Assembly: GCF_000003815.2 (NCBI RefSeq)
Contig: NC_049991.1
Coordinates: forward strand, 19,213,307 to 19,277,306
Direction: 5' to 3'
From: Branchiostoma floridae
Taxonomy: Eukaryota > Chordata > Leptocardii > Amphioxiformes > Branchiostomatidae
Length of the DNA: 64,000 nt
Shown here: positions 7,130 to 60,300 of the stretch, piece by piece
Layout: the number at the start of each line of letters is the position of its first letter
Numbering within the stretch: the stretch's first letter is position 1
Translations under genes and position numbers: made by a program
The notes under the pieces: model-generated
The model's input: the letters and a program-made list of their open reading frames with translations, nothing else
What the model was told of the DNA's origin: nothing
Database searches by the model: none

Positions 7130-10100
7130 CTACAACACAGGTTTTAAGGGTAGAGTGCAGTAGTCATCAAACATCCCGGCCAGTTCCAGTCTCTCCAGCT
7201 CGATCAGAACTCTCTGTACCTCCTGACGTGTGTAGGGGAGGGGCCCATGTCTCTGCCAGTACCTAACAACGTAGAAATAAGAGAACTATGACTATTATGT
7301 TACAATCTTAAGACTTTAGATCCGTGCACAAAATAAAGCGCTTACCAACAAGCTTTCAATCAGTCCTCTGATCCTTCTCAAGTTGAAATGACCCAAAACC
7401 TAAGTCACAATTGCTATGACTGTGAAAGGCAACAAGTATAATTTTTATAAAAATCTCAATTATGGAAAAATTTTACTTCTCTGCCAGTACCTAACAACGT
7501 AAACACTCAGATAAACTATTGAGCTACATGTAGTTCAACTGTAATATCCAACACAAAAATTGGACTCACCCAAATTTCGACTGAACAGCACCAGTCTTTG
7601 TCAAGGACAGTTGAACTAGCTCAATAATGACTTCTACCAACACAGATGAACTTTCAAGTTATTACTCAGATAAACTGAGGTACAGAATAAAGAGACTCTT
7701 TTTTACACAACCCCTGCTTTATTTCCAGGCGATTCTGACTGACTGGTTCACATAATGTACAGCATACAGTTGACAGAATATGATGCAGTCACAAATGCGA
7801 AGTACACAAATGTCATGTATTTACTAAATTATAATTTAGTACATATACATAAAAATCAAAAAGTACCTGAAGACGTATCTGGCAGGCAACTGCTTGTAGT
7901 TCTCCCTCACACTCTCCAGCAACATCACATCCACATTGTTAAGATCTGAGGAAAAAAAGATAAAAAAACTATCAGAAAAAAAAAAAAAACTTGCTTCTGG
8001 AGTCTGTGGTAACCATTACAGTAGCTAAAGTTGACATGTGATGGAGATGAGGGCAAAGTTTAGATAGTCCAATAAGACACAAAAGAATCTCACGTATATG
8101 TTACAACTTAAAACCCTATATCCGTACACAACATAAGGCGCTTACCAACAAGCTTTTGATCAGTAAAGTTGAAATGACCCAAAGCCTAAGTCACACATCC
8201 AGACCAGAAGTGTGACATTAGTAAAGGGTCACAGGTGCTTGGCAGTTGGTATCGGCCCCCGTCTCGGATGCTTGTTGGTAAGCGCTTTATTTTGTGTACG
8301 GATATAGGGTTTTAGATTGTAACATGATGTTGACTACCGTCACAGATGAACTTGCATTCAAGTATAAGGATCTCACCTAGCCTGGATGCCAACACTCTCC
8401 AGTCGTTTTGCAGTGGGCTGGGGTAACACAGTAGCAGCAGCAGTTTCTCCCACTTCTCCTTGGGTAGGCCGAGGGTGTCCTCCTCCAGACTAGTGTCCAT
8501 TAGTACACTCATGATCTGGGCAAGACAACAACATGCTTCTTTTTTAATCTAATCAAAAAGAAATATTTTCTAATATGTACAGATTATATGAATAAACCTG
8601 AGGTTGTAGCTTTCATCATTATGCACATGAAAAAAATAGCTTAATTGTAGTGGGATGTATCCCTGCATCAGGGATTCCTGCAGCAGTATAATCAGCTTTC
8701 ATCATTATGTAACGAAAAACAAAGTTTCATTACAGTGGTATGTACCAAAGTGCTGTATTTTCTCATAGAAAAAATTAATATTACGGGCTATAAAACCTGA
8801 TTACGTCATCCACACAGCCCCCCAAAAAATAGGATTTAGAATTCTTTTATGCCCATCTATCAATATTCGTTACAGCTCCATTCTTTCTTAATTCAAAAAT
8901 GAGAAAATAATGAAAGGTCAGAATGCCAATTTAGCCAACCTAAATACCATAAAAACGAGTATTACAGTAAAACAAAAACTCCCAATTTACTCACATCTTT
9001 CTTGGTGCTGTCTTGATGCTGCTGTTCCTTGCACAAAGTGGTGGTGGGATGCCCGTCATGATATTCAATGGAATTCAACTCTTGCCTATAAACAAGTCAC
9101 AGTCGACACACAAAATTAGACAATTACATATCTGTTAACTGTTACAAAATATGTCTATATGTTACTAATCATTATACTGAATACTGCCATGTTACAAATT
9201 CTTAACATTCTGCCATGAACTTGCAATTAATTACACTTGTTTACAAGTGTAACGAAACAATATGCATGGGAGATCATCTGACTAGTATAAGCCATTTACT
9301 TGTCTGCCATTTTGATTTTGAAGAAGAAATGTTTAGAAAATCGATCAGCCAACAAGTCTGCAAGCTCTAGATAAATGTTTTGCAGTAATTTGCTTGCCAA
9401 TGGTGTCCTCTTGATCATTGGGCAGAAAAAAGAAAAGGACCAGGACACAGCCCTGCATCTGCTACACTTTTTGACACCAGTACACAATCAACATTTAATC
9501 CTGTCATAACGGTCAATGAGCTTCGGCCTCCTTAAAATTTTTGGAGATCACTAAAAGGTTGATATAAATACTTGTGTATACTACCTGAAAATCTACCCCC
9601 ATCACATTGGATCAAGCAAAATTACTTGACTGTGAACAAATTGGAACAGCTCTGTGGAGACACAGTTGTCAATAAGAAGAAGTTAATCTACAACACAACT
9701 CAAACAATAAACGAAAGTTGTGATAATGACTTACCTGCTCGTTGCTCGTCTTGGTGCAGGTACAGGTTTCTTCTGTCCGTCTCCTGGAGCCTCTGATGGG
9801 GGAGGGGGGCATCTGGTGGCCTTTCTACCTCTCAGGCTGGGGTTCTGGTAAAGGGGTTCTGCCTTCAAATCTGGAACCATGTCAGCAAAGTCTTGAGCAA
9901 AGAATATCAGCTGGAAAGAACATGCATCTACCAAGACCATCTACGGTAATCTTCCCAGAGTGTCCCATAGTCTCAGGCAGAAGCGTGTCCACTTCAGAGG
10001 TCATTGCAACTGCGCAAGTTTGTTTGTTTGTTTGTTTGTTTGTGCAAGTGAAGAAGTGAAGAAGTGACCTCTTCACTCATCCTCTGGAGGGCAAGAGGAA

Positions 10101-13100
10101 AGACCTACTCAAGAAAGCTTACCTACCCAGCAACCAGTTCCAGAGACACCAGAAGTGAGGACTTGGGAACAGCTGTGAAAGACCAAGTGCTATGGAGAGA
10201 TGTTGTGTATTGCCTTACTCCGCCCGCCAGGGACGAAAGATGATAATGATGATGAAAGTCTTGTCAAAACTTATGATAGCATTTAACTACTGGGTGAGGT
10301 ATGCAATACCAAACAAAGGCAGTCTGGTAGTGCCTACAAGGGTCTGAATGGACCAAAGAGATAGAATGATAATGTTAATACATCAGAAGAATACTACTCT
10401 ACACTAACACAATAACTCTATTAAGGATGTGATGCTTTTACCAGCATATTCAAATGTTTCGCTGAAAAAGTGGCAGACTACCAGACAAATGTACTAAGTA
10501 TCTGTCAAGGAAAGTGAACTGAAGCTACATGTAGAATATGATAGTTTCCAGGCTACTAAAAAAGACTGTCTCCAGCTTTCATTTCTTTTCTGTCCTACTC
10601 ATTGTTTGGGAACCCATGGTCTTTATTCTTTCTGTAAGATCTGTCATTTTAAGCTCAGTAAAATATGTTTTCATCAAATTATCATGAAGTTAAGATTTTT
10701 TGGACAAATGGATTGAAATTTTTGTCAATTCCAACAAGCAAATCTCCATAAAGGGACAGACAAATAGGTCCAGGCAGGCTCTTAGCCAGGCATACATCTT
10801 TTGGACACGATGCCCTAAGAATGATAAGAAATCAGGTGCACAAGTTGCCCTTACACAGAGGAGCAGATCCTCTGACAAACATAACATTCTGATTGACCAG
10901 GGATGTTATTAATAGTAGGTCACTTGCAATTGTGGTCACAGACAGTAATTCTGCCCCTCAGGATACCTTTAATGCACCATTTTAACTTAGGCCACACCAA
11001 TTTAATTTCTTGGTTCACGGATTCGCTCGCTCCTATTTTTTGGGAAAAAAAATAAAAATAAAAATTACCACTCAGCAAATTTTCACCATTAATGAAACCA
11101 TTCACCAACTTTCTGGTGTAGCAAATTGGCCTTTATATTATAAGCTCCTTAGAGTGTGGGTACAGGTGCTGTTACTGTACAAAAATAGTGTTTTTGTACT
11201 TTTTTCAAGCTGAAAACTTTTTTCTTTATGTTTTGGATTAGCCGTTACCTTTACCCCAACCATTTTACAATTTTTATTTTTATTTTTATTTCGCCCTCTC
11301 GCTCCATATTTTTTATGAAAAAATTCGTGAACCAAGAAATTAAATTGGTGTGGCCTTAGAATTCTCTAAAACTCTGCACCATGGAAGGTGGATGCCACCA
11401 GACCCCCCTACAATACTCACGCCTATCAACTGCCGCGACTCACCAAGAAATTTGGTCCCCCCATAATTCAATCCTAGCTAAGAGCCTGTCCTGTAGACAG
11501 CCCTGATATTACTGGCAAAAAAAACGAAGGCTGTACCTGGAATGTTGTAGTATGCCATTGACGAAGGATCGGGAAGATCAGTCAGAAGTGGCATGGACCC
11601 CGACCTTTTCACGTTCGCAGCTACCTTAAGTCTCTGGGCGTCTTCCCTGTGGTGATCTTCATTTGACATACACTTCATATAGACTCTACTTCTCTCACTA
11701 ACATGTGACGTTGGTGCGTTCATGTAGACGTGTCTGTCACTAGGCCGTTGCACGCTTGTTGCATGTGAGTTTTCGGTAGCTCCATTGTCTTTTTCCATAG
11801 GTACTATGCTGTAATACGGCATGTCGTGCTCCGTTGGTTTTCTGTCTATTGTTCTGTCTGGAACATTCTTGTATCTACGCTCTTCCTTTTGACGCTGCGC
11901 TCTCTTTTTGGGGAGGAGTGGCTTCTCTTGTGTCGCCAACCCGTTACATTTGTTACTGTTGGCGTCTCTTTGTGCAGCAGCAGCAGCATCTTTAAACTCA
12001 TCTGAGCAGGAGAGGAATCAAAACAAGGTCCAAATTTGTAACTACGAGGGGTGATCAGACCTCAACCTAACCAAGAAATAATCACAACTCAGATTTTCAA
12101 GCATAGATGGCAAGTATTAACTATTCAAAGTCTTTTATGAATGTGTACCAAAATTCAACTCATTGTGATTATTACTTTGCAGGCGACACCCAGTAATGGT
12201 AGGTACAGTGTAAGAGTTCAGTTCAGTGAGAGAAGGAAAGAGAGTAAGAGAGTGTAAGAGAGAACGAAGGAATAAAAACATGGACAATTGAGCTGCAACC
12301 TGAGGTGCGCAGGTATGACTATGAACTTGTGCTTCAGAATTTGAATTTTGGCTCCATATCACAAAAAACTACACATTGCATATCTTAAACACATTTCAGT
12401 AATGTGTTAAAAACTTAAACCTAAAACTTAAATCAGATCACCCTGAGTATATACCCCCACACAAGAGGTTATCAAACTGACAACATCTGATCCTGATCCA
12501 TCATGGAAACGTCCTAGAGGCCGCCCAAGAGGGAGATGGGAAGATCGGGTCTTCAACACACTCCAGGAGCTGGGGGTCCCCAGATCCGACTGGACTGTCC
12601 ACGCCCAGTGTAGAACAACGTGGCGAGAACTGTCCGAACTGTCTGTAGCCGCCACGCATCAACATATGATGCATGCAAACGATTGATTGATTGAGTATAT
12701 CAGCCTGGGTACCATCCAGATAGTAGTTCTCTCCAACATTTATTATACACTATATACAGTCACTTCTCTGCTGTTCTCTAATGTCTGGAACTGTGTAAAT
12801 TTTGGACAAGGGCGCTGATTGGTCCCTACACATCAGGGAATAAAGGAATGGGGTCAAGCACTCGCTCAAACAGGCCTTCCAACGCCGGACAAGCCCTCCG
12901 TCCGCTTGTGGGAGGGCCTGTTGTCACCGAACGAGCACTCTAGTCTAGAACTATTCCTTAAATTTAATTCGCTCATTAACTGACGTTACCACCAAAAGGT
13001 TTCAATGTGGAGGTCTCCAGGGTAGCAGAAATGAACATAGGAGCAAACTACTATCCGGATGGTACCCAGGCTATGAGCATAGCCAATTAAATGAGAAACA

Positions 13101-16100
13101 TACCAACAACAATGTTGGGTGGACAGGATGCTTTCAATGTGGAAGGAAGCCCCGGATCTGTACTTCTTGGCTTCATCGACTTGTCTTCTTGTGTGGGGGA
13201 GGGAGTCGTTGGCAATACTCGGCGCCCGTCACTCGTTTGGGACTCTGACCGGCGGTACGGAACAGGAGGGGGGCACCCTGTACTGGAAAGCCGCGAACTC
13301 GTCGTGTGCTCGTTGGCGGAAGACGCTACGTTGGGAGTAGAAGGCAGGGGTCTTTTTTCTGCTCGTACAGGCTTGTGGAAGCGTTTCGAATGAGGCCCGG
13401 AAGTGGGAAGACGCTGTGTTTGAGCCTGCTTCTGTGCTAACGGTGGGGAGGGGCATTTTCCCAAGGATGTTGGTGGGTTGGATCCGAGGCCTGCTTTTCT
13501 GAAGGGAGGGGAGAGCGCTCGATGCGTTGGGGACGGAGACCGGGAGGTTTTGGGGTGTGGGGAGAGTCTTGGTGATGGCTGAGTGGGGGTAGGTTGCAAT
13601 TGGGTGGGTGGGGATGCACCATGTGATGGTTGGGTGGGGGTAGGTTGGGTGCGTGGGGACACACCATGTGATAAGTGGGTGGGTGGACGTGGGTCGGTAG
13701 GAGGAGGAGGTATTGGCAGAGGCCGGGACTGGACACCATCGGACGACCCAGGCCTGGGACGCGTGGGAGGACCGAGACGAGACTGGAACATTCTCAACTT
13801 CGTCACCAACTCCAACCTGGCTCGCGGAGGCAGCTTCACGATATACACACCTGGACACAAACCAAAAAAAAGAGTTTTTTTTAAAGATTGTACATTAGTC
13901 TGACTGTCATTCAATTAAACTAGTAAGCACAAACAAAAACTGGCTCCTGATCATGATTTATATGATTACTATTTCCATTTACAATGTATGTCCTGATAGA
14001 TAACACAAGACAGTAACCAGCTGTTGTGTGTTGGTTCGAATAAAGCTCCTAAACGGGGAACATGCGGCTCCAGCGTCTTTTCTGAAGATGTGGCGTAAGT
14101 GTGAACGGTTGGCTTGAGGTCTCCTTCTCCACATATATCTACAAGACAGTAACCAATGCAGTCTAGGAAACCAGAGCCTAACATCTGCTTGGAATCTGAG
14201 TGAAGGCAAATTTTAGATAGTGCAAACAGGAATTAAAAGGAAGACAAATGTAAGACAAGGTTGCTGTTTGAGACAGTTGTATCTATATCTGTATCTATAT
14301 AGCCAATATAACCGCTCTTCGGCGTAACACACCAGCTTCTGCATCTGTATCTATATATTAGCTGGTATAACCAAGCTTCGGCATAACACACCAGCTTCTG
14401 TATCTGTATACGCCGGCATAACTGCCCTTCGGTGTTAAACACCAGCTTCTGTATCTGTATCTGAATAGCCGGTATAACCGTGCTTCGGCGTAACACACCA
14501 GCTTATATCTGTATCTATATATATAGCATAACACACCAGCTTCGCAGGCATGCAGCGCAGCAGCAGCTGGTTATATTACACCGAACAACCCGTCACACCT
14601 AACTTTTGCATCTATCTGCAAGCATTCTTTGGAACTATCCATTTTGTAGCTACAAAATTGCCTACAAACTTTCGAAAATCAACACAAGGACGAGCTTGAT
14701 AACTGTAATTAATTTTGCACGTTTATCTGCAAGCGTTCTTTAAATCTATCCATTTTGTAGCTACAAAATTGCCTTCAAACTTGAGAAAATCAACACTACC
14801 TCTCCTTTTTCCTGGCTATCAAAAAATCAACCCCACCTCTCCTTTTTCCCGGCTGTCCGATGATGAGCTTCAGGAAGAACTGTCCGTCCTCCTGGCTGAC
14901 GTTCTGGTATTCAGGGTCATCGACCTCTACCTGCGCGATGTCCCACAGCCCGTGGCTCTGGGCAGACTGCATGTTGGTCATGAGGGAGGTGAAGCTCAGT
15001 GAAGCCTCCGTCAGGTTGATGACGAACTCGTCTGGGAGGGACGGGTCGGGACTCTGCACGGACTGACACATCCAGCGTCCTCCTGTGATTAAAGTGGACA
15101 GAGTTATACCCTGGATAACTGTAATAAAGTTAGGTTGGATGTTGAAGCTCAGCGAAACCTACGTCAGGTTGATGTCGAACTCGTCTGGGAGGGACGGGTT
15201 GGGACTCTGCACGGACTGACACATCCACCGTCCTCCTGTGGTTAAAGGGACAGAGTTATACCCTGGATAACTGTAATAAATTTAGGTTGGATGTTGAAGC
15301 TCAGCGAAACCTACGTCAGGTTGATGTCGAACTCGTCTGGGAGGGACGGGTCGGGACTCTGCACGGACTGACACATCCACCGTCCCCCTGTGGTTAAAGG
15401 GACAGAGTTATACCCTGGATAACTGTAATAAATTTAGGTTGGATGTTGAAGCTCAGCGAAACCTACGTCAGGTTGATGTCGAACTCGTCTGGGAGGGACG
15501 GGTTGGGACTCTGCACGGACTGACACATCCACCGTCCTCCTGTGGTTAAAGGGACAGAGTTATACCCTGGATAACTGTAATAAATTTAGGTTGGATGTTG
15601 AAGCTCAGCGAAACCTACGTCAGGTTGATGTCGAACTCGTCTGGGAGGGACGGGTCGGGACTCTGCACGGACTGACACATCCACCGTCCCCCTGTGGTTA
15701 AAGGGACAGAGTTATACCCTGGATAACTGTAATAAATTTAGGTTGGATGTTGAAGCTCAGCGAAACCTACGTCAGGTTGATGTCGAACTCGTCTGGGAGG
15801 GACGGGTTGGGACTCTGCACGGCCTGACACATCCAGCGTCCCCCTGTGGTTAAAGGGGACAGAGTTATACCCTGGATAACTGTAATAAATTTAGGTTGGA
15901 TGTTGAAGCTCAGCGAAACCTACGTCAGGTTGATGTCGAACTCGTCTGGGAGGGACGGGTCGGGACTCTGCACGGACTGACACATCCAGCGTCCTCCTGT
16001 GGTTAAAGGGGACAGAGTTATACCCTGGATAACTGTAATAAATTTAGGTTGGATGTTGAAGCTCAGCGAAACCTACGTCAGGTTGATGACGAACTCGTCT

Positions 16101-19100
16101 GGGAGGGACGGGTCGGGACTCTGCACAGACTGACACATCCAGCGTCCTCCTGCGGTTAAAAGGGACAGAGTTATACCCTGGATAACTGTAATATATTTAG
16201 GATGGATGTTAGCCATCAAGGAGGTCAAGCTCAGCGAAACCTCCGTCAGGTTGATGACGAACTTGTCTGGGAGGGACGTCTGCAAACACTGACACATCCA
16301 CCGTCCCCCTGTGGTTAAAGGGGAGCAAATTGTACACAAGATAACTGTCATGAATTAAAGGCACAAGCGAAACAAAATTACATTTTTCAACCCTAGCTAC
16401 CATTCTATATACCTAAAGCTAGTTTACCTTTAGCCGTCGGATAACCTATATCGGTTGTTTACTGAATCAGAGCACTGTTCCAGGAATATCAAAGTCTTTC
16501 ACACTGTAATAGAATTTAAGGTATTGCATTTTAAAACCTTCGTCTGTCGACTTGATGTACCCTGTTTGTAAGAACAAAACGAATATAAGCTACGCACCGA
16601 TAAAAAAAGGTAAACTAGCGTTACATCTAAAGATGGTTTTACTAATCATATTGGTTGGCCTTTTAGATACGGCCTTGCCATCAATAGATCTGCAGTGGAT
16701 TACTTATTCCTGGACTTGAGCTGACCAGTCAAAAATTTGGGGAAGTCCAATTTTTGTGTTGGAAATTACAGATCAACTTGTTCCACTTCCAGAATAACTT
16801 CTAACACAGGTGAATTTTCAAGTTAACTGAGAGATCTGCCGATAGAAGTAAGGGATTTCCTTCTACATGTGTGTCAGGGCTCTAGCCAGCATCCGTTTTT
16901 CCGTCAATTGACGGAATTTGCTGCGTGTGACGGAAAATTTTTTAAACCAATCCGTCAACCTTGACGGACAAAAAATTCTTGGTGGAAACTACAGGTGGCT
17001 TGGGGACGCTGTCCACGGTCGGAAAGCCACACACTGTTTGTTTTGCTATTGTTATGATTGTTGACTTAGTGCGTCGGTGCCCTTTCGCATACGATAATCT
17101 CATTAAAAACACGTTTTTCAAGGTCTCAGTTCCGTCTTTCTAACTTGATTTTCGCGGTTTTCGCGACAATGGGAATTGGCTGACGGAAAAAAATTTCGAG
17201 CTGGCTAGAGCCCTGATTTATGTACACCAGAAAGGTACTCACGATCTCTCATGCGCCTCCTGACTTCTTTGTCCCATACCTCCACTCCGTTGTCCGGTCC
17301 CGACTTCCTGCCCCGCACTTCCTGGAACAGCAGGGTACAGCTGTCCAGCACCAGCGCCCAGTACCTGGACGATGAAACCAACTCAGGTGAAAATAGAATA
17401 CAACACGGTGTATTCCGTATCGCCCAAGGTATCAGCCCGACCGCTTTGGCCGTCGGGCGATCCGACCCGCGGGAGAAAACCCATGTTTTGATGCGAAATG
17501 CGACAGAAGTTGAACAAATTTGGTGCCCTCAAACAAAAAGTATGACAACAGCAATGTTCCAACGTCCGAATCAGGTATTCGAATTGCCAATTTGGTCAGC
17601 TAGAAACAGTTTGATTTAATCGAATGGAGCCTGTGTGATACGCCTTTCGAACCTGTGCGATATGGAAACGTACGGCCCAGAACACCCGTATCGAACGTTT
17701 TTGCGTCACAGGTAATTATTGACATAAAAATGAGTACCTACCAGGGCTAGAAATTCATTTTTGGGATGAGGTGCGCTGGTGCACCCAGCTTAAGAAATTG
17801 GGTGCACCAAAATTTTATTGGGTGCACCACTTAAAAGTAATAACCTAGTGATAAAACTTAGATACAAGGTATCAAATTCTTAAACAAGTACCATGATAGA
17901 CATTTTTATTATCTTTCTAACACATATATGAGAATATGATGTATACTAGACTAGTATACTTTGATATCTTTACATACACAACCTAAAAAAATATTTGGGT
18001 GCACCCTGTGCACCCTCAGAAAATAATTGGGTGCACAATTGTGGGTGCACCTAGGTGCACATGCACCCAGTATTTCGAGCCCTGCTAAGCTTCGGCTAGG
18101 GCCGTCCCTCGGATAGGACATTAAATGGAGGTCCCGTGTATGAGGAGAGCCACACCCCACACACGTTAAAGAACCTGCCACACTTATCAAAAAGAGTAGG
18201 GGACCTTCCCGGTGTGAGTGGATCAAACCATTCTGGCCAAATTGGGGTAGGGAATTTCCCAAGCAGCCCTCGTAACCCCTGCTTTACCTGCATCACACAT
18301 ATTTTACCTGCACCCTCTTAATTTAGGAACCACTGCTATTTTTTCTTTTATACTTGATAGGTGGCAACATTCAATGCAGCTAATAAAATCCACATATACC
18401 TACATCATATGTAATTTAGACATAAAACCCAGTACATGAACCAGTGCAGGTTAGGTACAGGTTACACCAGAAATTCCTGCACAGCTCCAATTTTACCTGC
18501 ACTAATTACCTGCATATGCAGGTGGTATTTCGAGCCTTGGTTCAATAAAACAAACGTCGGTACCGGGTACAGACCTCCAATGGCTGCCAGGCACCTGTTG
18601 CATGCATAAGATGTAGGAAAAAGGATGTCAAATGTCACCTACCTAAGGTTTAGTTGGTGAAAATCTCACATTGGCAGGCAAGTCTGACTTCTAAAGAGTG
18701 CATATGGCGATTTTGAAAACATTCGGTTCGGCGCAATGCGCCCCCACAAACAGAATAAGAAACGCTGGTGACCTTTGACCACCCTGATAACACCCAAACT
18801 ATACATACTCTAGACTGTCTAAAACACTCCAAACATGGTAGAAAGCCTATTTTTCTCACGAAATAAAATAGCCAGATCCCCTACCTATAATTTCCGACCC
18901 CAAAATGCCAACATTTCCCAACAAAAAGGCTTCTTACACTTACTTTTGCAAGCCATCTTCAATGGCATCAAAATGCTAATTCTGCGCATGTCTGTAATGG
19001 TGACCTTTCACTTACCTCTCTTCGGCGTCGTTCACCCGCTTGTTCAGCACTCCGCACTCCGAGCCGCAGAACGTGTCACGCTCCAGACAGAACAACCGCC

Positions 19101-22100
19101 AGGGCACCCGCGGGACCTTGTCGTAATACAGGCACAACCGGTAGACTGGCCAGGGAGGGAAAACGGAATATTAGTTCATGCAGCTCTCTACTGTTTCCTC
19201 CCTCTCCGTTTAATGAATGAAGAAGATCTTAAATTTGTTGTACGTTTCAGCTCTCACAAGCTAAGTATAGGTCAGAACGATAAAGTTCTGAGTGCAATGT
19301 AGTTCCGAATAGTCTGAGTACAAGTACGAGTTCTCGTTACGTAAGAGCAAGTTATCTTACTACATGCAACTACAAAGTGTAATGTACAAATGTATGTTAG
19401 TATGTGACTTTGTACAGATTCGACTTCTTCTTATTCCTGTGTCGTAGTACAGGCACAACCGGTAGACTGGCCAGGGAGGGAAAGGGAATTTTAGTTGATC
19501 ATGATGAAGAGGTAAACTCTAAAGTCACACATAAGGGTTCTAGGAAGGATTTATCTATCTATTTATTCATTCAAAATGCAATGGTATTTTAATGTAATGT
19601 TAATTTAAGGCCACACCAATTTAATTTCTTGGTTCACGGATTTTTTCATAAAAAATATGGAGCGAGAGGGCGAAATAAAAATGGTAAAATGGTCGGGATA
19701 AAGGTAACGGCTAATCCAAAACATAAAGAAAAAAAGTTTTCAGCTTGAAAAAAGTACAAAAACACTATTTTTGTACAGTAACAGCACATGTACCCACGCT
19801 TTAAGGAGCTTATAATATAAAGGCCAATTTGCTACACCAGAAAATTGGTGAATGGTTTCATTAATGGTGAAAATTTGCTGAGTGGTAATTTTTATTTTTA
19901 TTTTTTTTCTCAAAAAATAGGAGCGAGCGAATCCGTGAACCAAGAAATTAAATCGGTGTGGCCTAATGGCAAGGAAACAAACAACCAATTAGGGAAAATT
20001 GTGAGGAAGGGGGGTACTGGCCCTTCCAAGGTTAGATTTTGAAAATGTAGAGTAAAAGATGGCATGATAAGGGTTGACAGGATAAGGGGACTTACTGTTA
20101 GTAACTCTTATTAACATCACGTGTAATTTGAAGGACTTTTTGTCAGTTTTGAGCGGCATATCATCATTTATTCAGTGTACAAAATACTTTTCTGGGCTGG
20201 GTTGCACGGCGTGCAACCTGGGGCAAAAACTAGGTTGCACAACTGAATTTCAAGTTGCACAATTCACTAATTTCTGGGGAAAAAGGTACAATACATAACC
20301 TTTTACTATCATGTTACTTATAAGCATCTTTGTTTCAAACTAAAAATCAAGTACATTGACAACAAAATCAAGTTCTGAGGCTCAAAATCTAAGTTGCACC
20401 CTGTGCAACCTGAGTTTAGAAGTAAGTTGCACCAAGCAAAAAGTGGTTGCAATGTGCAAGTGTGCAAGTGGGTATTTTGCACGCTGTTATTATACTTGAT
20501 TAGACATTTTTCAACAAGTAAATGATAGCAAAGTACCATGTACTAGTAAAAAGTTCTTAAACTACAGAACTCTGGTAGCTTTCTATATGAACATGACTGC
20601 TAAAGAAGTAACTGAATACTGTCGCTTTACCGTGCTCCTGTGGAGTGGTGGACAGCTCAACCCAGTACTGAAAAGTACAAAAAAATTAGTTAGGACAGTT
20701 TAAGATAAATGTTAGAAAAAGCACAAACCTCTGATCCTCTTCTTCTTTGATCAAACTTAAACTCAAAGCACAATGCTAGGCCCTGCTAATTAGTATTTTG
20801 GCTGTTGGAATTTAAAATCAAAAGAAAAAAGGCTGAATTGGAACATCAAGCTAAAAACAGATTCTGATAGGGAAGTGTTGAAAAAATTTCTTTAAGATCT
20901 GATAATTTGAGAAACTTTTATCATTTTATGAATCTTTAGAGTTTACGTTGTCCCTTCAAGTTAACTGATTACCAAGGGAGCCCTTATAATCAAGATATTA
21001 ACGAAATATACATTTTAGGTAAACATCATAGGAGTAAATAAAACAGAAATCAAAACAATAACAAATGAATCCAAAATCAATAAACGTTCAACGGTCTTTT
21101 AGGGTCAACACTGCTAATTTAAGTTATTCTGTTTAGTCTGTAAATAGATACAACTGTTACTACTAGTACGTATACCGGTGTACTCGACAAGTCAAAAGCC
21201 ATGTTACAAAGGAATGTCTTAATCTACTGTTCGTTTCAACTGCTCGTCCCGCATCAGTGAAAGATAAAGGTCATATTTACATAGGAGTATAAACAGACAA
21301 ACCGGATGGTGAGGAGAATGCAAAGAATGTACCCCCAGGGTGCTCAATTTAGCTGTACTGTTTGATACACAAGTTTATAACTGCATGTGTGTAACAATAA
21401 AAGTCTCTTTTCTATTAAAAAAAGGTACTCTCACTGGTCAGACTTTGAACCAGGATGTTTTTCCTGGCTCTAATTGTGTCTAAGTGAACCAGCAAGGCAA
21501 ACATACAGTACATGTACATGTATGTTAACAGATGTGTGACGCTGAATCTTTCTTTTACAATGATCGTAAAAGGGAAGCACATCTAGTTTTCTAAATTCTA
21601 CTGGCTCACTGCAGTCAGCCTTGTCAGAAACTTTTAAAGTAGTAGGCTAATATCTGAAAGTAGCAGGCAAGCCGCTTTGCGGCTTGCAGCGAGCCACAAA
21701 GTGGCGAGCGGGGGGTAGGTACGGGAGGGGGGTTGCCCCCCTCCTGTTGGGGGGGTTTGGGGGGCCTCCCCCAGGAAAAATTTGTAAATTTAGACCCCTA
21801 AACATGGTTTTTGGTGTATTCTGGGCAACTTTTCTTGTCAGCTTATATCTTGGAATTAACCTCTACCATTTTGTGAAAGAATCCATCCACAATCAGGCAT
21901 GTTGTGTTTCTAGTTATAGTCCAGAAAATAGTCACAGGCACACAGAGCTAGGCCCATGCACTCAAAGGTCCAGATATTAGAACTCCGCCTCCTTGGAGGT
22001 GTGGTGGCAGTGTCTGCTGCAAGCTCAGATAATGTAAACAACAGAGAAAACCTAATACACATGTGGGACATTCGTCAAAATGACAGTTTTCAGATCCCCG

Positions 22101-23245
22101 AAGACCCAGTAAGTTATCAGAAAACTGACAGAGATTTATCAAGACAAATTGCTGGGGGATTTTGTAACAAAAGTAGGCGGCTGAAAAATGTAAAGTAGGC
22201 GGGGAAAATAGCCGGCTGCCGGCTGGATTTGACAAGGCTGACTGCAGACTGAGTTCACACAACCAATCAACTTACTCATGATACCTTGGGAAAGTGTGAT
22301 GTCAGAGATTGATTGAATGATTGATTGATTGATTGATTGATTGGGGGACAATCTCACCCCCAATCCATGGCTTGAAATACTGGGTGCACTTTTGTACAAT
22401 ATTTTTTACATGCACACCTTAAATATTTGTCAGTAATGTCCATTTATTTTCCATTGTACTCAGCATATTCCTGACATGTAACTTGTCATTCGACATTTTT
22501 TAAATGGTGCACCTCATGTTTTAGACAAGCTGTACCAAGGCCCCAAAATGAATTGAGCCCTACTAGTTACCTCACACGGTTACACCACATACATACAAAT
22601 AACGCTATCATTTTTTACTGCAATTAATGATATTCTAAACATGTGTATATACAGTATATCTGTTCAGCAATTGATACTAATGAATATCACATCAACATAT
22701 AGATTGATGGATTACTATCAATTCAGCTTGGGCACAGACGCTTATTTTGCCAAGGAAGCAATTTGCCCCACCACAAAACACAGCACGAGGGCCCTAAATG
22801 CCACAATCCCATGAATGTGATGTTTTCATCTTTGGTCAGCACAAATTTCAAGAATTTTGGAAGGTTTAAGATGGTCTAAAACAAAAAGGATATATGCGAG
22901 TGCTAGTTTCTTTACGAGTCCAGTACCAAATCACTTGGGTTTCATTTGGGGGGGGTTGCAAGTCCAGAACCGGTCCGGAGTACCAGTATGCATCCCTACG
23001 AGATACACATGTAGATATTAGGGATTTAATGTCAACTCTATGCTGGGCTTATGACCTTTCAGGGCAAAAGGGCTATAGTTTGGCGTGAAAGATTCATACT
23101 TGGCTTTTGACTTCTAAAGCAAAGGTTTACATTTTAACATGAGGGGTCTGGTATCCTGGCTATAATTAGTTACCTTAGTCTTCTTGAATCCTTGACCCTT
23201 TACACCCAGTAGACACAGCGGTCCTTCCTTGATGACTGTAGCCAT
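7130..23245 (-). CDS. Docking/adaptor-like protein: PH/PTB-like N-terminus, proline-rich middle, YxNx tyrosines, C-terminal Death domain
   Basis: Twelve coding exons on the minus strand: 23245-23174, 20667-20631, 19145-19016, 17364-17243, 15082-14837, 13850-13104, 12001-11537, 9891-9735, 9085-8995, 8515-8377, 7945-7867 and 7262-7130 (stop TAG). The total is 2418 nt, 805 aa, and phases agree at every junction. The start ATG has a good context (AACATGG). Residues 1-120 (IKEGPLCLLG...KTKYWVEL) resemble a PH domain and 121-225 resemble a PTB/PH fold; both are tentative. Residues 226-451 are Pro/Ser/Thr-rich with SH3-type sites. YxNx motifs occur at Y179, Y495, Y544, Y602 and Y621 (GRB2-SH2 type), with an SH3-type PVPAPRR motif near residue 650. 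Residues 705-798 read as a Death domain (DWRVLASRLG, then YWQRHG...TRQEV). It probably couples tyrosine-kinase signalling to Death-domain partners; that role is inferred. Weakest points are the acceptor at 9892 (CTCAAG) and the donor at 14836 (GTGGGG). Confidence 0.72.
10060..10245 (+). pseudogene. LINE 3' end fragment
   Basis: A plus-strand frame ends ...VKDQVLWRDVVYCL...ARDER then stop, followed by a GATGATAATGATGATG tail. This is the usual C-terminal and tail pattern of CR1/Ingi-like LINEs. It lies in an intron of the Death-domain gene. Confidence 0.5.
10775..11488. mobile_element. hAT-like CAGGCTTTTAGC element, copy with nested insertion
   Basis: The ends CAGGCTCTTAGCCAGG and CCTAGCTAAGAGCCTG match the family seen intact at 23512-23856 and 35677-36037. 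The interior is interrupted at 10990-11355 by another element. Removing that insertion restores collinearity with the intact copies. Confidence 0.8.
10990..11355. mobile_element. GGCCACACCAATTTAATTTC element, copy 1 (3-bp TTA duplication)
   Basis: Perfect-looking inverted ends of more than 25 bp (GGCCACACCAATTTAATTTC and its complement) are flanked by TTA at 10987-10989 and 11356-11358. The uninterrupted host sequence at the same place in sister copies has a single TTA. A 3-bp TTA/TAA target is typical of PIF/Harbinger elements. Copy 2 is inverted at 19609-19963. Confidence 0.85.
12495..12697 (+). pseudogene. LINE C-terminal fragment with GATT tail
   Basis: A frame reads WKRPRGRPRGRWEDRVFNTL, then TTWREL and a stop, and ends in a GATTGATTGATTGA simple tail. 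This basic RGRPRGRW block before the stop is characteristic of some non-LTR retrotransposon ends. Confidence 0.6.
14270..14535. repeat. Minisatellite, about 60-bp units
   Basis: About four to five imperfect units contain CTTCGGCGTAACACACCAGC and TCTGTATCTATAT. It is intronic in the Death-domain gene, between the PTB-like exon and the proline-rich exon. Confidence 0.8.
15083..16330 (-). repeat. Tandem array of PTB-like exon fragments (about 152-bp period)
   Basis: Eight copies of the 5' portion of the exon at 14837-15082, each with its upstream 3' splice site, lie head to tail in the preceding intron. Copies of TGACACATCCA(C/G)CGTCC start near 15220, 15369, 15521, 15673, 15825, 15978, 16131 and 16290. 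Seven copies have lost the exon's 3' half and carry ACG-TAG in place of the Thr-Glu codons, so using one as an exon would truncate the protein after about 25 residues. The copy at about 16200-16315 is the least decayed but lacks several codons. Confidence 0.88.
16418..16627. mobile_element. MITE, GCTAGTTTACCTTTA family, second copy
   Basis: Left end CTAGTTTACCTTTAGCCGTC and right end AAAAAAGGTAAACTAGCGTT are inverted. The interior shares words with 3508-3736 and 61858-62170. Confidence 0.6.
16875..17215. mobile_element. CAGGG...CCCTG element, GACGGA-word family, copy 1
   Basis: The ends CAGGGCTCTAGCCAGC and GCTGGCTAGAGCCCTG are inverted, and the interior repeats CCGTCAATTGACGGA-type words. 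A sister copy at 42447-42786 has a perfect 8-bp duplication. Confidence 0.8.
17388..17710. mobile_element. Interspersed repeat (ACACGGTGTATTCC family), copy 1
   Basis: It shares long collinear blocks with 63060-63425, including ACACGGTGTATTCC, GATCCGACCCGCGGGAG, ATGCGAAATGCG and ACACCCGTATCGAACGTTTT. There is no coding capacity and its class is not determined. Confidence 0.65.
17742..18084. mobile_element. CAGGG...CCCTG element, GGGTGCACC-word family, copy 1
   Basis: It begins CAGGGCTAGAAATTCATTTT and ends AGTATTTCGAGCCCTG. The interior repeats TTGGGTGCACC and its complement. Copy 2 is at 53092-53436 and a decayed copy lies near 22378-22560. Confidence 0.75.
18085..18300 (+). mobile_element. 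5'-truncated SINE body
   Basis: Blocks such as GTCCCTCGGATAGGAC, TTAAATGGAGGTCCCGTG and CAGCCCTCGTAACCCCTGC match the body of the full SINE at 44932-45416. The tRNA head is missing. Confidence 0.7.
19609..19963. mobile_element. GGCCACACCAATTTAATTTC element, copy 2
   Basis: This is the inverted sister of 10990-11355, with the same ends, flanked by TAA on both sides (19606-19608 and 19964-19966). Confidence 0.82.
20190..20490. mobile_element. GTTGCAC-word repeat element
   Basis: The word GGTTGCAC/GTGCAACC is repeated many times around the palindrome GGTTGCACGGCGTGCAACC. The layout is like the CAGGG...CCCTG elements, but the ends are less clear. Confidence 0.5.
21610..22245. mobile_element. 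Non-autonomous DNA element, CTGCAGTCAGCCTTGTCA ends
   Basis: Inverted ends CTGCAGTCAGCCTTGTCA (about 21610) and TGACAAGGCTGACTGCAG (about 22228-22245) enclose a G-rich interior without a gene. Confidence 0.65.
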
Positions 23246-26388: not shown

Positions 26389-29300
26389 ATGGGACGGAAG
26401 AAGAAGAAGCAGATGAAGCCTTGGTGCTGGTATCCTTTTCAAACCCTACATAACGCCCACGTCGTAGTGTACATACGTAAGCTGGGGGTGGGAGGTGGGC
26501 GATTTTTCCTAACAAAGGGTTTTCCTTTCCTCAAACCTTGTAGTTGAAGATACCTTGAAGATTCCTCAAGCGACTGGTGTTTTGAACAAAGGGTCAGTGC
26601 CCGGTCATTGCCCGTTTTCAAAATCTTTGTTGTTGTTTTTATCTATCCAGTTTCTTGAGTTTCTTTTATAGTGCTCCAAAGTTCAAGGAGGCAGTTCTCC
26701 GACGCCTCAGGGGACATTAAGGCGCAGCACTCCCCCTGGACGCTTTGCCCCAACTGAGGGGCGTTGTCCAGTACCCAATCAAGATCAAGATCAAGAAGAT
26801 AGTGCTTATAACACTTATAATACTTATAGTTTGTGTGTTCAGTGGGACGCACAACCAGGTTACACAATGATTCAAGGACGAAACGTTGTGCAAAGCAAGT
26901 TCTATTTTCATTGTCTTACTTCAGACGGCCTAGAAATAGTCGCAGGAGCCATCTTGGGCAACGACTGTCTAAAATGGGCCTTAAAATGCCCCATTTTAAG
27001 TTACAATTTTCAAAAACCCATGGAAGGGGCAAAGGTTGAACCCCAACTTGAACCCCATCACCTCCTCTTGATTGCTCCTTTGCAGTGCTCCCCTTGCAGT
27101 TTTTTTTTTCTAAAAAAAAACGCTGTGGCTATTGACACACTGAGTGTGCCCATAGCCAAACAGGCTATTGACACACCGAGATGCCAACCAGCCAATCAGA
27201 GCTTGTAACATGACTTTCCCGACATTATTTTACACAAGCAACAGTTGATTAGACATTGTTCAAAGGATTAGACATTGGAATCTTTGAATCTTCGAATGAA
27301 CAGACGTATTCAAGTTATGCCCTACATTTGGATACCTGTAAATGCCGCTTTTTCTTGTCTATGTTGGCCGTAGCGTAGTGGGGAGAGCGTTGAACTGCGA
27401 ACCCATGTTATCAGTTCCGACCTCAGTTCGAGTCCGCCCTGGAAATTTTTTTTTTCAATTATCCTTTTACCTTTTTAAAAAATCCATTTGATATAAGAAT
27501 ATTTTCGTCTTGCGACCAGAACCATCAAAACCCACCTTTGGGACTTTTTGGTCTGCATTTTCAAGAGTGCATGTTTAGGTACGTTTATTTTTTTTCAGCC
27601 GCAGATCGGCAGAATCTACCCGCTACGTTCTTATTTTGGACGGTACACTTATTTTTTTTTAAACAGGACCAGGGACCCCTGAAATAATAAAATGTGGGTT
27701 TTTCTAACCATATTTCTGCGGTATTTTTGCTCAACATTCACGTTTTTTTCGGTCGAAGCGGCGCGGATTTCCCCGCCGCTATGTCATCCAAACATCCTAG
27801 CGGTTACGCGTAACATATCGGTCGATCTCGCTATGACGCTACAAAGTTCTTTCACATTAAAATGATGGAAGTAAAACAACAACTATAACTTCGCTTCACT
27901 TGTGATATAAGTTTTGAGACCGCAAATTCTCCCAAACGGCAGGAATTCGTCGGTAAACACAGCTGAAAACGACTGTTCCAAAACCGAGCCAACATGATTA
28001 CATGCGGTGTTTGCATGGTACTAAATATAGTTAGCTCATTTGCATACTTGTGACTTGCTTGATGCGGCCTTTACCGTAAACGCGTGAAAAAGATCGTATT
28101 TTGGGTTGATGATGGACACAGAATGCCATTTGTATTTTCAGAGCGTTGACTGTCAAATATAATCGTAAGATTTTCTCATTTTAGTGGTTCCTAGTGTCAA
28201 AATTAAGACAAATAGTGCACTGAGTGTGTCAATAGCCTGACAGGCTATTGGCACACTGAGTGTGGCAATAGCCTGTTTAGGCCCAGACTCCTGATATTGA
28301 GTCTTATTTTGAGACTACACCTTGTTTTGAACTTTCCTTGACCAGACGTTTCCCCAGGTACTGTAACAGGGAGTTCGAAGATGAAAAGATTCTTATGCAG
28401 CACCAGAGAGCGAAGCACTTCAAGTGTCATATATGTCACAAAAAGTTGTACTCGGGGCCGGGGTTAGCAATTCACTGTGTACAGGTGCGTAACTGCCTTT
28501 TTATGTTTGCTCAGTGTAACTTGCGTGTCTCTTCCACTTCAGGAACATTGTGATATTTGAGACAAGCTCAGCTTCTTTGAGCTTCATTTAGGGAGTCAGC
28601 TTGGAGAAATGTTGTCATCTGTTTTGTCTTTCCCACCATTTGTATGTTTCTTAATGGTGAAGTAAGTTATAAATGAAATAAATGCACAGAATTCTAGCTA
28701 GTGCATTTTAGCATAGTGGGCCACTATGCTATAATTTGTGACCACTACACTAAAATAAGGGCCACTACGCTAATTTTTAACTAGTGAAGTGGTGTTATTA
28801 TGCTATCATTTGTTTGTTCAACAATGTCTAATCAATGTCTGAAGTCTCTCTGAACAATTTGAAAAATGATGATATGCCACTTAGTGACTTAGAACTGACT
28901 AAAATCCTTCAAATTACATGTGATGTTAACAGAGAGCCAACAGAGAGAAAACTCACTGTGGAAGGGCCAAGACCCGCCTTCCAGACGCTACCATGCCATT
29001 CCCACTGAAAATGAAATCCTGGCTAGAACCCTGACGCACTCTTAAGAGTGAGAACTAACTGACACAGAAGCAAGGGTTACAAAAGATATTAAGAAAATTC
29101 TCTCTAACTATATTCAATCAAAGTACATGTACATTAAGAATTATATAAATGGTCTAGAATAGCATCTACAATTATAATGGTACTATCTACATGACTAAAT
29201 ATAATATTGTACTTCTTTCACTGTCAGGTACATAAAGAAACAGTAGATGCAGTACCAAACTCGTTACCAGGGAGAGCGGACATTGAGCTGGAAATCTATG

Positions 29301-54300: not shown

Positions 54301-57300
54301 AATTGTTCAAACATTTCAAAATGAAAGTTTAAACATGTTTGAACCTTTTTTATATTTGTTGGAACATTTGTGAAAGTAATGATATAATTATCTCTTTATT
54401 TAGAACAATTTTCAAACGTCTGTGTTTTTGTTATTGTTCCAACATGTTCCAACATTTTGTGTCATTTTTTCCCTCCATAAAAACTGTTATTGACCCCATA
54501 AACAAAGGTGCTAAGCTGGGTCCTTTGTGTGGCCTTGTATTTTTAGATTTTCTTCAGAAGACACTGGTGAGTCTTTTGTGAGAAGGTGGCAGACAGACGT
54601 AATTTCCTGCACTTGGCAGAGATGTGTGAATTGCCCTCTTTCCAGCCCACTGACCCAGTTTCATCATATTGTTTCCATGTTCGAACATGTGATCACAAAT
54701 GATGCATCTATGTTGGAACAGTTTAGAAACTAACAGAAATAATGTATTTGATGTTAGAAATGTTTCTAACATGTTTGAATACTATAGAAATATTTAGAAC
54801 GTCACATAGATGTTATAAATAGTTCTAAACAGTTACTTATCACAGATTAGATTGTTACAAAGATTTCCAAAATGTTAGAACAAAAGGCAAGAAACACCCT
54901 CTCGGTAATATGGAATCGACTCTATGTACTTACCTGATAGGACAAGTGAATTTTAGAAAACTTGTCCGACCCTGGTTAACCCATGCTAATCAATTACCCG
55001 CCAACATGGTCGTCGGAGAATTCAAATTATAATTAGTATGACGTCAATGATAAGCCTGTATACCGTACCCTAGACAGTTGGCATACAAACATTTGTCTCA
55101 GAAGACAATGGTAGACAGACGGTGGGTTAGGCGACCCGTCTGCCTGGCCTGCACATGATTTTTTAAGGTAAAGGAGGGTTGTGCACGTCCTTCTCCACCC
55201 TCTCGTCTACTGGCACACTAAGTCCCACAGGGACAACACTAGTACTGCATGCCACGTGTAAGACAGCCCCAGCAGATGCAGCTTTCTTGTTTGGAGTTTC
55301 CGTCTCCTAGGAGGATGTAAGGGGTTCCTCCTACCCCTGACTTGTGTATAGCAAGTGTGTCATGCCCTTGACAGTAGACACTCACTGATTTTTGATGATT
55401 AATAATCCACTGACCCTGCGACCTCAAAAAGGCAATGGGACTGCCTTTACCTTCTTACCTGGATAAGAAAGTGACTGTGATAAATGAAAGTGAAAGTCTC
55501 TCACCTCCTCCAAGACGTCTTCCGTCCTGCTCCAGAGTTCCGTGGCGTTCTTCCAGCGACCTTGGTCCACCGCCTGCTGAGTCATCTGTGCCGACTTCTG
55601 CACCGCCTGGAGACCAACATGGTCCAGTAGGGACTGTATGGGAAAGGAAAAATACATTAAACATTCACAAAAACTTTTTGTATCACTTAAGGTTCTTTTT
55701 TTTTCATTTCTATCCTTTATGAACTTAGAAAATTGTTATTGATAAGTCTGTGCCAACTTCTGCACTGCTTGGAGACCAACATGGTCCAGTAGGGACTGCA
55801 TAGGACATGGGAAATACATCAACATTTACAGAAACTTTTTGTAACACTTAAAGTTTTTTTGTTGTCTTCATTTCTATCCTTTATGAACTTAGAAACTTGT
55901 TATTGATAAGTCTGTGCCGACTTCTGCACTGCTTGGAGACCAACATGGTCCAGTAGGGACTGCACAGGACATGGGAAATACATCAACATTCACAAAAACG
56001 TTTTGCAACACGGTCTTTTTTTTTTGTCTTCATTTCTATCTATGTTATTGATAAGTATCCTGTCCAAATCCATATGTATTACAGTCTCTGTGTTTGGCAG
56101 CAGGGCAGGCCTTTAGCCAGGCATGCGTCAACGCGTCATCTGGACGCACTTTTCTTAGAATAACAAGAAATTTGATGCCCCTGGACGCCCTCACACTGGG
56201 AGAAAATCATCTGACAAGCATGAAATTCTGATTGACCAGGGATGCTGCCAGGTCATCTGTGGTCACAGTCTTCTACTGTGACCTCTGTAACAGTATTTTT
56301 ACCTCTAAGGATACCTTAGAATGCACATTTTAAACTTAAAATCATCAAAAACTCCCCCCAGACCCCCCTACAATAGCGCATGGTCTTTTTAGCGAATGCC
56401 CACAAACGCCCACTCTAGACAAGTCCGCGCTGCACGAATCTCATTTTTTTTACTTGGAATATGTCCACGTTGTGCTCCCATGTATTAATCCTGAGTTTCA
56501 AGTCAATCCATCGACCCGAAGTGACATAAATCAAAGTTTTCGATTCTCGATGGTCTTTTTAGCGAACGCCCAGCAAAATGTCTTTTTAGCGAATGGCAAT
56601 GCCCACTATATCCACAAAAATATCAGCCGTCGCGCAACGACACCTAAACCTACCGCCACAAACATGTTCAAAATGGTGTCCCATTGATGTGTACGGAGTT
56701 TCCGTGCTTTACAAGCATTTTAAGTCCCTGTTTTTGGTCAAAACGTACGCCGCCGATACTGCCATACATTAACAATGGCAATTCAAAATGGCGGGCACTA
56801 GTCATGTGACCTCCTTGCGGGACTGTTCTATAAGTATCGCGGGAGGGACTGTTGTAGCATAGCTTATCATACAACCATTTTAGAGTGAATTCTGAACAAG
56901 ATTTTCAATTCATAGTGCTATCATCTGACTGATATTTACAATGTGGTCCTTTTTTCTGTGCTATAATTACCCAGGTTTGAGGAACTTAGTGCAAATATGG
57001 ATATTGATTCTCCTCAGTGCCCAATTAATGTACAAAAGGCTCAGACACATTAGTGTTATAAACCTGACTAGGGGCAGGTAACCAATACTAGAAAAACATA
57101 GCTATTCATTATTAACAATACTATTTACATTATAATAATAACTCTTCACCAAACTGGACTTTTCTTATCTTTATTTATCACAGAAACATTGCTAAAATGA
57201 GGATTTGATTAGATGAGTATCTGTTACAGTGTGTACAAACTTATTTCAAATACAAAAATGTATTTCATTTCACTTCCTAAATATTTTTAAAGTATTGGAA

Positions 57301-60300
57301 GGGGTTGAGACATAAACAATATTAATTGCATTATTTGTGAGCAGAAAAATGGAACCACATGCTATTAATAGTCTAATAAAATGTTGGAACATGGCATGAG
57401 CGGGCTCCTCTTCTGAGTACAGAAAGGAAATGTTTTATAACATTTAGTTATGACGTAGAAAATTTCAATTGTAAAATGTACCTTTATTAACATTGACAAA
57501 CAAATTGTTTTTCTATTCTTAATAAATGACAACAATACAGGTAAGTAAGGTGTGTTTCTTTTATAACAGGCCAGGTAAGACGCCGTACAGGTAAGTAAGG
57601 TGTGTTTCCTTTTATAGCAGACCAGGTAAGACACCGTACAGGTGAGTAAGGTGTGTTTCCTTTTATAGCAGACCAGGTAAGACACCGTACAGGTAAGTAA
57701 GGTGTGTTTTCTTTTATAGCAGACCAGGTAAGACACCGTACAGGTGAGTAACATGTGTTTCCTTTTATAGCAGACCAGGTAAGACACCGTACAGGTAAGT
57801 AAGGTGTATTTCCTTTTATAGCAGACCAGGTAAGACACCGTACAGGTGAGTAAAGTGTATATCCTTTGATTACAGAGCAGGTTAGACACCATACAGGTGA
57901 GTAACGTGTATTTCCTTTTATAACAGGCCAGGTAATACACCATACAGGTAAGTAAGGTGTGTTTCCTTTTATAGCAGACCAGGTAAGACACCGTACAGGT
58001 AAGTAAGGTGTGTTTTCTTTTATAGAAGACCAGGTAAGACACCGTACATGTGAGTAAGGTGTGTTTCCTTTTATAACAGGCCAGGTAAGACACCATACAG
58101 GTAAGTAAGGTGTGTTTCCTTTTATAGCAGACCAGGTAAGACACCGTACAGGTGAGTAACATGTATTTCCTTTGATTACAGACCATGTAAGACACCATAC
58201 AGGTGAGTAACGTGTATTTCCTTTGATTACAGACCAGGTAAGACACCGCACAGGTGAGTAAGGTGTATTTCCTTTGCATATAGACCAGATAGGGTGAGTA
58301 AAGCAACTTTACTTTGCCTATAGACCAGATAGGCCATTATACAGGTAAGTTAGGTGTCTTTCCTTCGCCTATATACCAGATAGGGCATTATACAGATAAG
58401 TAAGGTGTCTTTCCTTTGCCTATAGACCAGATAGGGCATTATACGGGTGAGTAAGGCGTCTTTCCTTTGCCTATAGACCAGATAGGGCATTATACGGGTG
58501 AGTAAGGCGTCTTTCCTTTGCCTATAGACCAGATAGGGCATGATACAGGTAAGTAAGGTGTCTTTCCTTTGCCTATAGACCAGTTATGGTATTATACAGG
58601 TGAGTAAAGCAACTTTCCTTTGCCTATATACCATATAGGCCATTATACAGGTGAGTAAGGTGTCTTTCCTTTGCCTATAGACCAGATAGGGCATTATACA
58701 GGTAAGTAAGGTGTCTTTCCTTTGCCTACAGACCAGATAGGTATTATACAGGTGAGTAAAGCAACTTTCCTTTGCCTATAGACCATATAGGCCATTATAC
58801 AGGTGAGTAATGCGTCTTTCCTTTGCCTATAGACAAGATAGGTATTATACAGGTGAGTAAAGCAACTTTCCTTTGCCTATAGACCAGATAGGGTATTATA
58901 CAGGTGAATAAGGTGTCTTTCCTTTGCCTATAGACCAGATAGGGCATTATACAGGTAAGTTAGGTGTCTTTCCTTTGCCTATAGACCAGATAGGGCATTA
59001 TACAGGTAAGTAAGGTGTCTCTCCTTTGCCTATAGACCAGATAGGGTATTTTACAGGTGAGTAAAGCAACTTTCCTTTGCCTATAGACCAGATAGGCCAT
59101 TAAACAGGTGAGTAATGCGTCTTTCCTTTGCCTATAGACCAGATAGGTATTATACAGGTGAGTAAAGCAACTTTCCTTTGCCTATAGACCAGATAGGGCA
59201 TTATACAGGCAAGTAAAGCGTCTTTCCTTTGCCTATAGACCAGATAGGGCATTGTACAGGTAAGTTAGGTGTCTTTCCTTTGCCTATAGACCAGATAGGG
59301 GATTATACGGGTGACTAAGCTGTCTTTCCTTTGCCTATAGACCAGATCGGGCTTTAAACCGGTTCATAAGGAGCCTTTCCTTCCCTTATGGCCCGGACAG
59401 GAGATAATCCACTCAACTAAGGGGAATTTACCTTCTGCCCGAGCACCAAACCACCGGAAAACGACCTCAAAAAACGGTGATACTCCGCCGCATCGGGCCC
59501 AAACCAAAAANNNNNNNNNNNNNNNNNNNNNNNNNNNNNNNNNNNNNNNNNNNNNNNNNNNNNNNNNNNNNNNNNNNNNNNNNNNNNNNNNNNNNNNNNN
59601 NNNNNNNNNNACCTGTATAATGCCCTATCTGGTATATAGGCGAAGGAAAGACACCTTACTTACCTGTATAATGGCCTATCTGGTATATAGGCAAAACAAA
59701 GTTGCTTTACTCACCCTATCTGGTCTAAATGCAAAGGAAACACACCTTACTCACCTGTGCGGTGTCTTACCTGGTCTGTAATCAAAGGAAATACACGTTA
59801 CTCACCTGTATGGTGTCTTACATGGTCTGTAATCAAAGGAAATACATGTTACTCACCTGTACGGTGTCTTACCTGGTCTGCTATAAAAGGAAACACACCT
59901 TACTTACCTGTACGGTGTCTTACCTGGCCTGTTATAAAAGGAAACACACCTTACTCACCTGTACGGTGTCTTAGCTGGTCTGCTATAAAAGGAAACACAC
60001 CTTACTTACCTGTACGGTGTCTTACCTGGTCTGCTATAAAAGGAAACACACCTTACTCACCTGTACGGTGTCTTACCTGGTCTGCTATAAAAGGAAACAC
60101 ACCTTACTTACCTGTACGGCGTCTTACCTGGCCTGTTATAAAAGAAACACACCTTACTTACCTGTATTGTTGTCATTTAGTAAGAAGAGAAAAACAATTT
60201 GTTTGTCAATGTTAATAAAGGTACATTTTACAATTGAAATTTTCTACGTCATAACTAAATGTTATAAAACATTTCCTTTCTGTACTCAGAAGAGGAGCCC

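Follow-up and report, generated by a model that had tools for sequence, protein, structure and literature searches.

Does the minus strand of this lancelet locus encode a single docking-type adaptor protein that ends in a Death domain? Within the window, the whole 64,000-nucleotide stretch of Branchiostoma floridae DNA that was analysed, a sequence-only reading had joined twelve minus-strand exons in phase into one 805-amino acid frame. Rejoining the exons from the window reproduced this frame, which starts with the ATG at 23245, ends with the stop codon at 7130 and comprises 2418 bases including the stop. All 11 introns have GT-AG boundaries and the phases agree across every junction. The exons are the following:

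23174..23245, minus strand: exon 1, residues 1-24, where the PH-like region begins; the ATG has an A at -3 and a G at +4
20631..20667, minus strand: exon 2, residues 25-36, PH-like
19016..19145, minus strand: exon 3, residues 37-80, PH-like; the DOK1 match ends at residue 46
17243..17364, minus strand: exon 4, residues 80-121, judged by eye to hold the presumed final PH strands and helix (VEVWDKEVRRRM)
14837..15082, minus strand: exon 5, residues 121-203, where the claimed PTB starts, for which we found no sequence support; contains Y179
13104..13850, minus strand: exon 6, residues 203-452, remainder of the claimed PTB, and the Pro-rich linker region
11537..12001, minus strand: exon 7, residues 452-607, YxN motifs at Y495, Y544 and Y602
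9735..9891, minus strand: exon 8, residues 607-659, contains Y621 and PVPAPRR
8995..9085, minus strand: exon 9, residues 659-689, entry phase 2 and exit phase 0
8377..8515, minus strand: exon 10, residues 690-736, first part of the putative Death domain
7867..7945, minus strand: exon 11, residues 736-762, second part of the putative Death domain
7130..7262, minus strand: exon 12, residues 762-805 and the stop codon, third part of the putative Death domain

The splice sites were scored with a textbook consensus matrix and ranked among the 4170 GT and 3737 AG sites of the minus strand. Ten of the 11 donors rank within the top 6% of the GT sites, the remaining one being the exon 7 donor at 8.0%, and ten of the 11 acceptors rank within the top 8% of the AG sites, with the exon 8 acceptor at 10.2%. 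For the coding test, codon usage was learned by leaving out one exon at a time and the score in the stated frame was compared with that of intron windows. This score is reached by at most one intron window for seven of the twelve exons (exons 3-8 and 10) and by 8 of 1000 for exon 12. Codon support is weak for the short exons 1, 2, 9 and 11, where 36-83 of 1000 intron windows reach the score, and an alternative frame scores marginally higher in the codon model for exon 4 (0.44 versus 0.43) and exon 6 (0.16 versus 0.11). The phases of exon 9 (2 on entry, 0 on exit) fit both of its neighbours, exon 8 ending in phase 2 and exon 10 starting in phase 0. As phases 2 and 0 do not match, a transcript that skipped exon 9 would lose the reading frame. 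We infer that all exons lie on one transcript. If there is a false join, it is most likely at the exon 7/8 junction, where donor and acceptor form the lowest-scoring pair.

Partial copies of three exons were observed in the neighbourhood of the real ones:

15084-16310, minus strand, intron 4: the exon 5 acceptor and first approximately 30 codons, present upstream in eight further copies in tandem
7478-7500, minus strand, intron 11: second exact 23-base copy of the exon 12 acceptor and start, the real one being at 7250-7272
19441-19467, minus strand: additional nine-residue copy of the exon 3 start (VYRLCLYYD), located upstream of that exon, with an E-value of 1.1

The intron 4 repeat has a period of about 152 bases, and Tandem Repeats Finder reports 97% matches over 14990-16210. 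The acceptors of the copies score 7.8-8.2, compared to 6.9 for the real exon 5 acceptor. Seven of the eight copies contain an in-frame TAG and tblastn recovers seven of the eight. These copies could be decoy or poison exons, a recently arisen minisatellite or an artefact of the assembly. The 23-base copy in intron 11 is apparently a local duplication. Searching the translated window with the 805-amino acid protein revealed no paralog; the search returned the protein's own 12 exons, the repeat copies and four matches with E-values of 2-10, which we take as chance.

The central part of the protein carries the tyrosine and SH3 motifs typical of a docking protein. A phosphorylated YxN is the established binding site of the GRB2 SH2 domain and RxLPxxP is the consensus of class I SH3 ligands. 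The five YxNx tyrosines named in the sequence-only reading (Y179, Y495, Y544, Y602 and Y621) are all at the given residues, and its SH3-type PVPAPRR site is present at residues 649-655:

14898..14909, minus strand: YQNV with Y179, exon 5
11862..11873, minus strand: YKNV with Y495, exon 7
11715..11726, minus strand: YMNA with Y544, exon 7
11541..11552, minus strand: YYNI with Y602, exon 7
9839..9850, minus strand: YQNP with Y621, exon 8
13705..13725, minus strand: RPLPIPP, residues 245-251, RxLPxxP, an SH3 class I ligand pattern
13333..13353, minus strand: RPLPSTP, residues 369-375, RxLPxxP pattern
13201..13221, minus strand: RVLPTTP, residues 413-419, RxLPxxP pattern
9746..9766, minus strand: PVPAPRR, residues 649-655, exon 8

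Across the whole protein, the five observed YxN motifs compare with 0.73 expected by shuffling, and six of 10,000 shuffles reach five. In residues 231-703 there are four, compared to an expectation of 0.34, a number that two of 10,000 shuffles reach. The three RxLPxxP motifs stand against 0.09 expected and one of 10,000 shuffles reaches three. The PxxPx[RK] pattern, with three copies, shows no enrichment over shuffling (2253 of 10,000 shuffles have at least as many), and the motif count found neither YxxM nor NPxY in the 805-amino acid protein. Judged by its motifs, the tail thus carries predicted SH2-type tyrosine sites and predicted SH3 ligands beyond chance, as the tails of docking proteins do.

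The position of these motifs also bears on whether the model fuses two adjacent genes, a docking protein that ends with exon 7 or 8 and a small Death protein starting at about exon 8-10. The shortness and weak coding signal of exon 9 (66 of 1000 intron windows reach its score), a methionine at residue 691 and AATAAA or ATTAAA words in several of the introns are consistent with such a fusion. However, the exit of exon 7 and the entry of exon 8 are both in phase 1, exon 9 connects phase 2 with phase 0, and YxN motifs flank the 7/8 junction on either side. The splice sites of exons 7-9 are also fair to good, although the exon 7 donor and the exon 8 acceptor are the weakest of the set. We consider two fused genes rather unlikely.

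At the N-terminus, PH/PTB-like exons had been proposed from the sequence. In Pfam, neither the PH nor the IRS/PTB families gave a match at E-values up to 10, be it with the whole protein, with residues 1-229 or with three pieces of residues 1-230. The only family matching residues 1-230 is a T6SS immunity family with E-values of 0.07-0.27, which we take as chance. A sequence search against the PDB with the N-terminal end found no PH or PTB match (best E-value 1).

Comparison with profiles points to a PH-like start. The PH profile of DOK1, DOK2, IRS1 and DOCK9 scores 26.5 with residues 1-122, and none of 300 shuffles reaches this score (mean 11.6, maximum 19.0), a figure that overstates the PH case because DOK1 was selected by visual inspection and its PH sequence was entered by hand. 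With a profile of DOK1, DOK2 and DOK7 the N-terminus scores 24.1, reached by none of 200 shuffles (maximum 22.0). Residues 1-46 align to the start of the DOK1 PH domain without gaps, with 13 of 46 residues identical and an E-value of 0.026 for this single comparison. The match crosses two exon boundaries, 1-2 and 2-3, with EGPL, W and L at corresponding places. Without DOK1 the PH signal is lost: the score is reached by 73 of 200 shuffles with DOK2, IRS1 and DOCK9, by 43 of 200 with IRS1 and DOCK9, and by 110 of 200 with DOK2 and DOK7. The spacing of the hydrophobic runs and a tryptophan close to where exon 4 ends (VEVWDKEVRRRM) would also fit a PH domain.

For the claimed PTB in residues 119-230, hhalign comparisons with the PTBs of DOK, IRS and FRS proteins are at chance level, with 163 of 300 and 147 of 200 shuffles reaching the scores, and a very divergent PTB may lie in this region. 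A DOK7-like identity of residues 1-230 was rejected, as 78 of 200 shuffles reach its score. Out of the proposed PH/PTB-like exons, it is hence the PH part that persists, as a DOK1-like start seen with one reference, while the PTB part does not rise above chance and Pfam recovers neither.

The N-terminal results could alternatively describe a Death scaffold with an unrecognised N-terminal domain, which would offer SH3 and GRB2 sites only and would bind neither lipid nor phosphotyrosine itself. The Pfam result for residues 1-230, where the T6SS immunity family is at chance level and PH and PTB are missing, agrees with such a scaffold, as do the chance-level PTB and a PH support that comes from one reference. 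On the other hand, the DOK1-like start beats 300 of 300 shuffles and is free of gaps over two splice junctions. We regard such a scaffold as rather unlikely.

Death domains are modules from which complexes of cell death and inflammation are built. At the C-terminus, Death (Pfam: PF00531) ranks first among the Pfam families for each of the three constructs that include this end. The whole protein matches in residues 720-790 with an E-value of 0.038 and 14.6 bits, the 116-amino acid construct with 0.0013 and 19.3 bits, and the 90-amino acid cut with 0.00061 and 20.3 bits; all three scores are under the curated cut-off of 22.6 bits. The whole-protein match falls where the sequence-only reading had anticipated a Death domain, at about residues 705-798, but is weaker than the cut-off. 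SlmA-like_C is the next family, with E-values of 0.06-0.1 in two of the three constructs.

A Death profile was built from five solved domains, those of MyD88, UNC5B, ankyrin-3, RIPK1 and THOC1. Its score with the C-terminal 102 residues is 27.4, which none of 300 shuffles reaches (mean 10.5, maximum 23.6). After removal of MyD88 the score is 23.0, reached by none of 200 shuffles, and after removal of both MyD88 and UNC5B it is 17.4, reached by one of 200. The same segment scores 8.2 against the PTB profile and 14.1 against the PH profile. With phmmer, the Death part found four matches in the PDB at E-values up to 10, all of them BMI-1 chains (best E-value 0.093) and none a Death domain, and BLASTP gave no alignment of the C-terminus to UNC5B. 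The C-terminus is likely a divergent Death domain by these comparisons. The Death pattern proposed there is thus borne out by the profile and by the ranking of families, but not by the Pfam cut-off, and we provisionally count the protein as a Death-domain protein, on its similarity and not on the curated threshold. It is very unlikely that the C-terminus holds some other helical domain, or a RAWUL-like one, in what would be a divergent but ordinary docking protein: all three Pfam Death scores are under the gathering score and phmmer favoured BMI-1 (E-value 0.09), yet Death leads in all three C-terminal constructs with SlmA-like_C next at E-values of 0.06-0.1, and the Death profile and the leave-out profiles exceed the shuffles.

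A single natural docking adaptor that links GRB2 and SH3 partners to a Death-domain complex is a reading that we consider about evenly poised between right and wrong. The docking type of protein ending in a Death domain, as first proposed, is upheld by the motif enrichment and the Death-like C-terminus, but not by the PTB, which is at chance, and by the PH domain only in part. The best reading is that the protein works like a DOK/IRS/GAB docking protein. It is not classed as a member of the DOK/IRS family because a PTB was not detected and the PH support is only partial.

As such an adaptor, the protein would be a scaffold in the cytoplasm that works in the manner of DOK/IRS/GAB proteins and carries at its C-terminal end a Death domain, a module for self-assembly. 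The divergent DOK1-like PH module may hold the scaffold at the membrane. Tyrosine kinases would phosphorylate Y495, Y544, Y602, Y621 and perhaps Y179, generating pYxN sites for GRB2-type SH2 domains, and the three RxLPxxP motifs and PVPAPRR may hold SH3 partners. The Death domain could then nucleate or join an assembly of the MyD88, UNC5 or FADD type. Two directions are conceivable: either the assembly follows kinase activity, or kinase and Ras(/MAPK) signalling is recruited to Death receptors. In both cases the protein would connect receptor tyrosine kinases with Death complexes. A more tentative possibility, which we lean somewhat against, is that a DOK-derived docking protein acquired its Death domain through exon shuffling and that assembly of the Death platform is under the direct control of growth-receptor activity.

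The lancelet protein resembles the DOK family (DOK1/2, DOK7) and the IRS/GAB proteins in its putative DOK1-like PH start and in its long Pro-rich tail, where YxN motifs and SH3-ligand patterns occur. Unlike DOK and IRS proteins it has no detectable PTB, and RRYG and GRRC of the DOK1 PTB chain are not found in its residues 119-230. To our knowledge no DOK, IRS or GAB protein has a C-terminal Death domain, so the Death(-like) domain at the C-terminus sets the lancelet protein apart from all three. GAREM consists of a CABIT domain, a Pro-rich region with YxN motifs and a SAM domain. By this description, both proteins are GRB2-binding scaffolds, putatively so in the lancelet, with a C-terminal helical assembly domain, and they differ in having CABIT and SAM in GAREM but PH-like and Death domains in the lancelet protein. 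We know of no combination of docking and Death parts in vertebrates.

Many steps usually separate receptor tyrosine kinase pathways from Death-domain pathways. One protein with both sets of contacts would, if true, represent a naturally occurring equivalent of synthetic death switches. DED-PTB and DED-SH2 chimeras were reportedly engineered by Howard et al. in 2003 (PNAS). Passages of a study on amphioxus (PMC2575513) cite such artificial adaptors as turning tyrosine kinase signals into apoptosis. Going by these passages, the chimeras and the lancelet protein share parts of phosphotyrosine signalling and a domain of the Death superfamily. The chimeras carry a DED and bind phosphotyrosine themselves, whereas the lancelet protein has a predicted Death domain and putative phosphotyrosines in its own chain. 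In the literature, we encountered kinase-to-Death wiring only for an engineered chimera, as cited in PMC2575513.

The same passages describe novel domain combinations of amphioxus as 'shortcuts' between pathways and list death-caspase and death-NACHT among the combinations found as cDNA (PMC2575513). Since they report many novel domain combinations in amphioxus immunity and apoptosis genes, the protein would be a further case of a known phenomenon. It shares with those amphioxus proteins the novel combination with Death-fold domains. Caspase, NACHT and TIR are the Death-fold partners named in these passages, compared to docking parts in the lancelet protein. In the main text of PMC2575513, as distinct from its supplements, 'PH domain' and 'pleckstrin' each occur zero times. 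We recognised no description of a protein with PH or docking parts and a Death domain among the titles and passages of the open-licence literature. If true, the lancelet protein would be another example of the direct-connection wiring which is proposed for amphioxus immunity and apoptosis in passages of PMC2575513.

Ten further open reading frames of the window, which include the own frame of exon 6 and one in intron 6, were searched in Pfam. Six of them have no match and four have weak matches, all below the curated cut-offs. Outside the gene, the following features were observed:

28281-28553, plus strand: C2H2-type zinc-finger exon (Pfam zf-C2H2 E-value 0.03, below the cut-off)
55424-55735, minus strand: open reading frame weakly matching the COG5 C-terminal domain (E-value 0.017, below the cut-off)
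57365-58336, minus strand, and 59691-60337, plus strand: short-repeat stretches on opposite strands that keep long frames open

The zinc-finger exon resembles ZNF207/BuGZ. Judged by eye, the two stretches at 57365-58336 and 59691-60337 are inverted copies of a tandem repeat and not genes.
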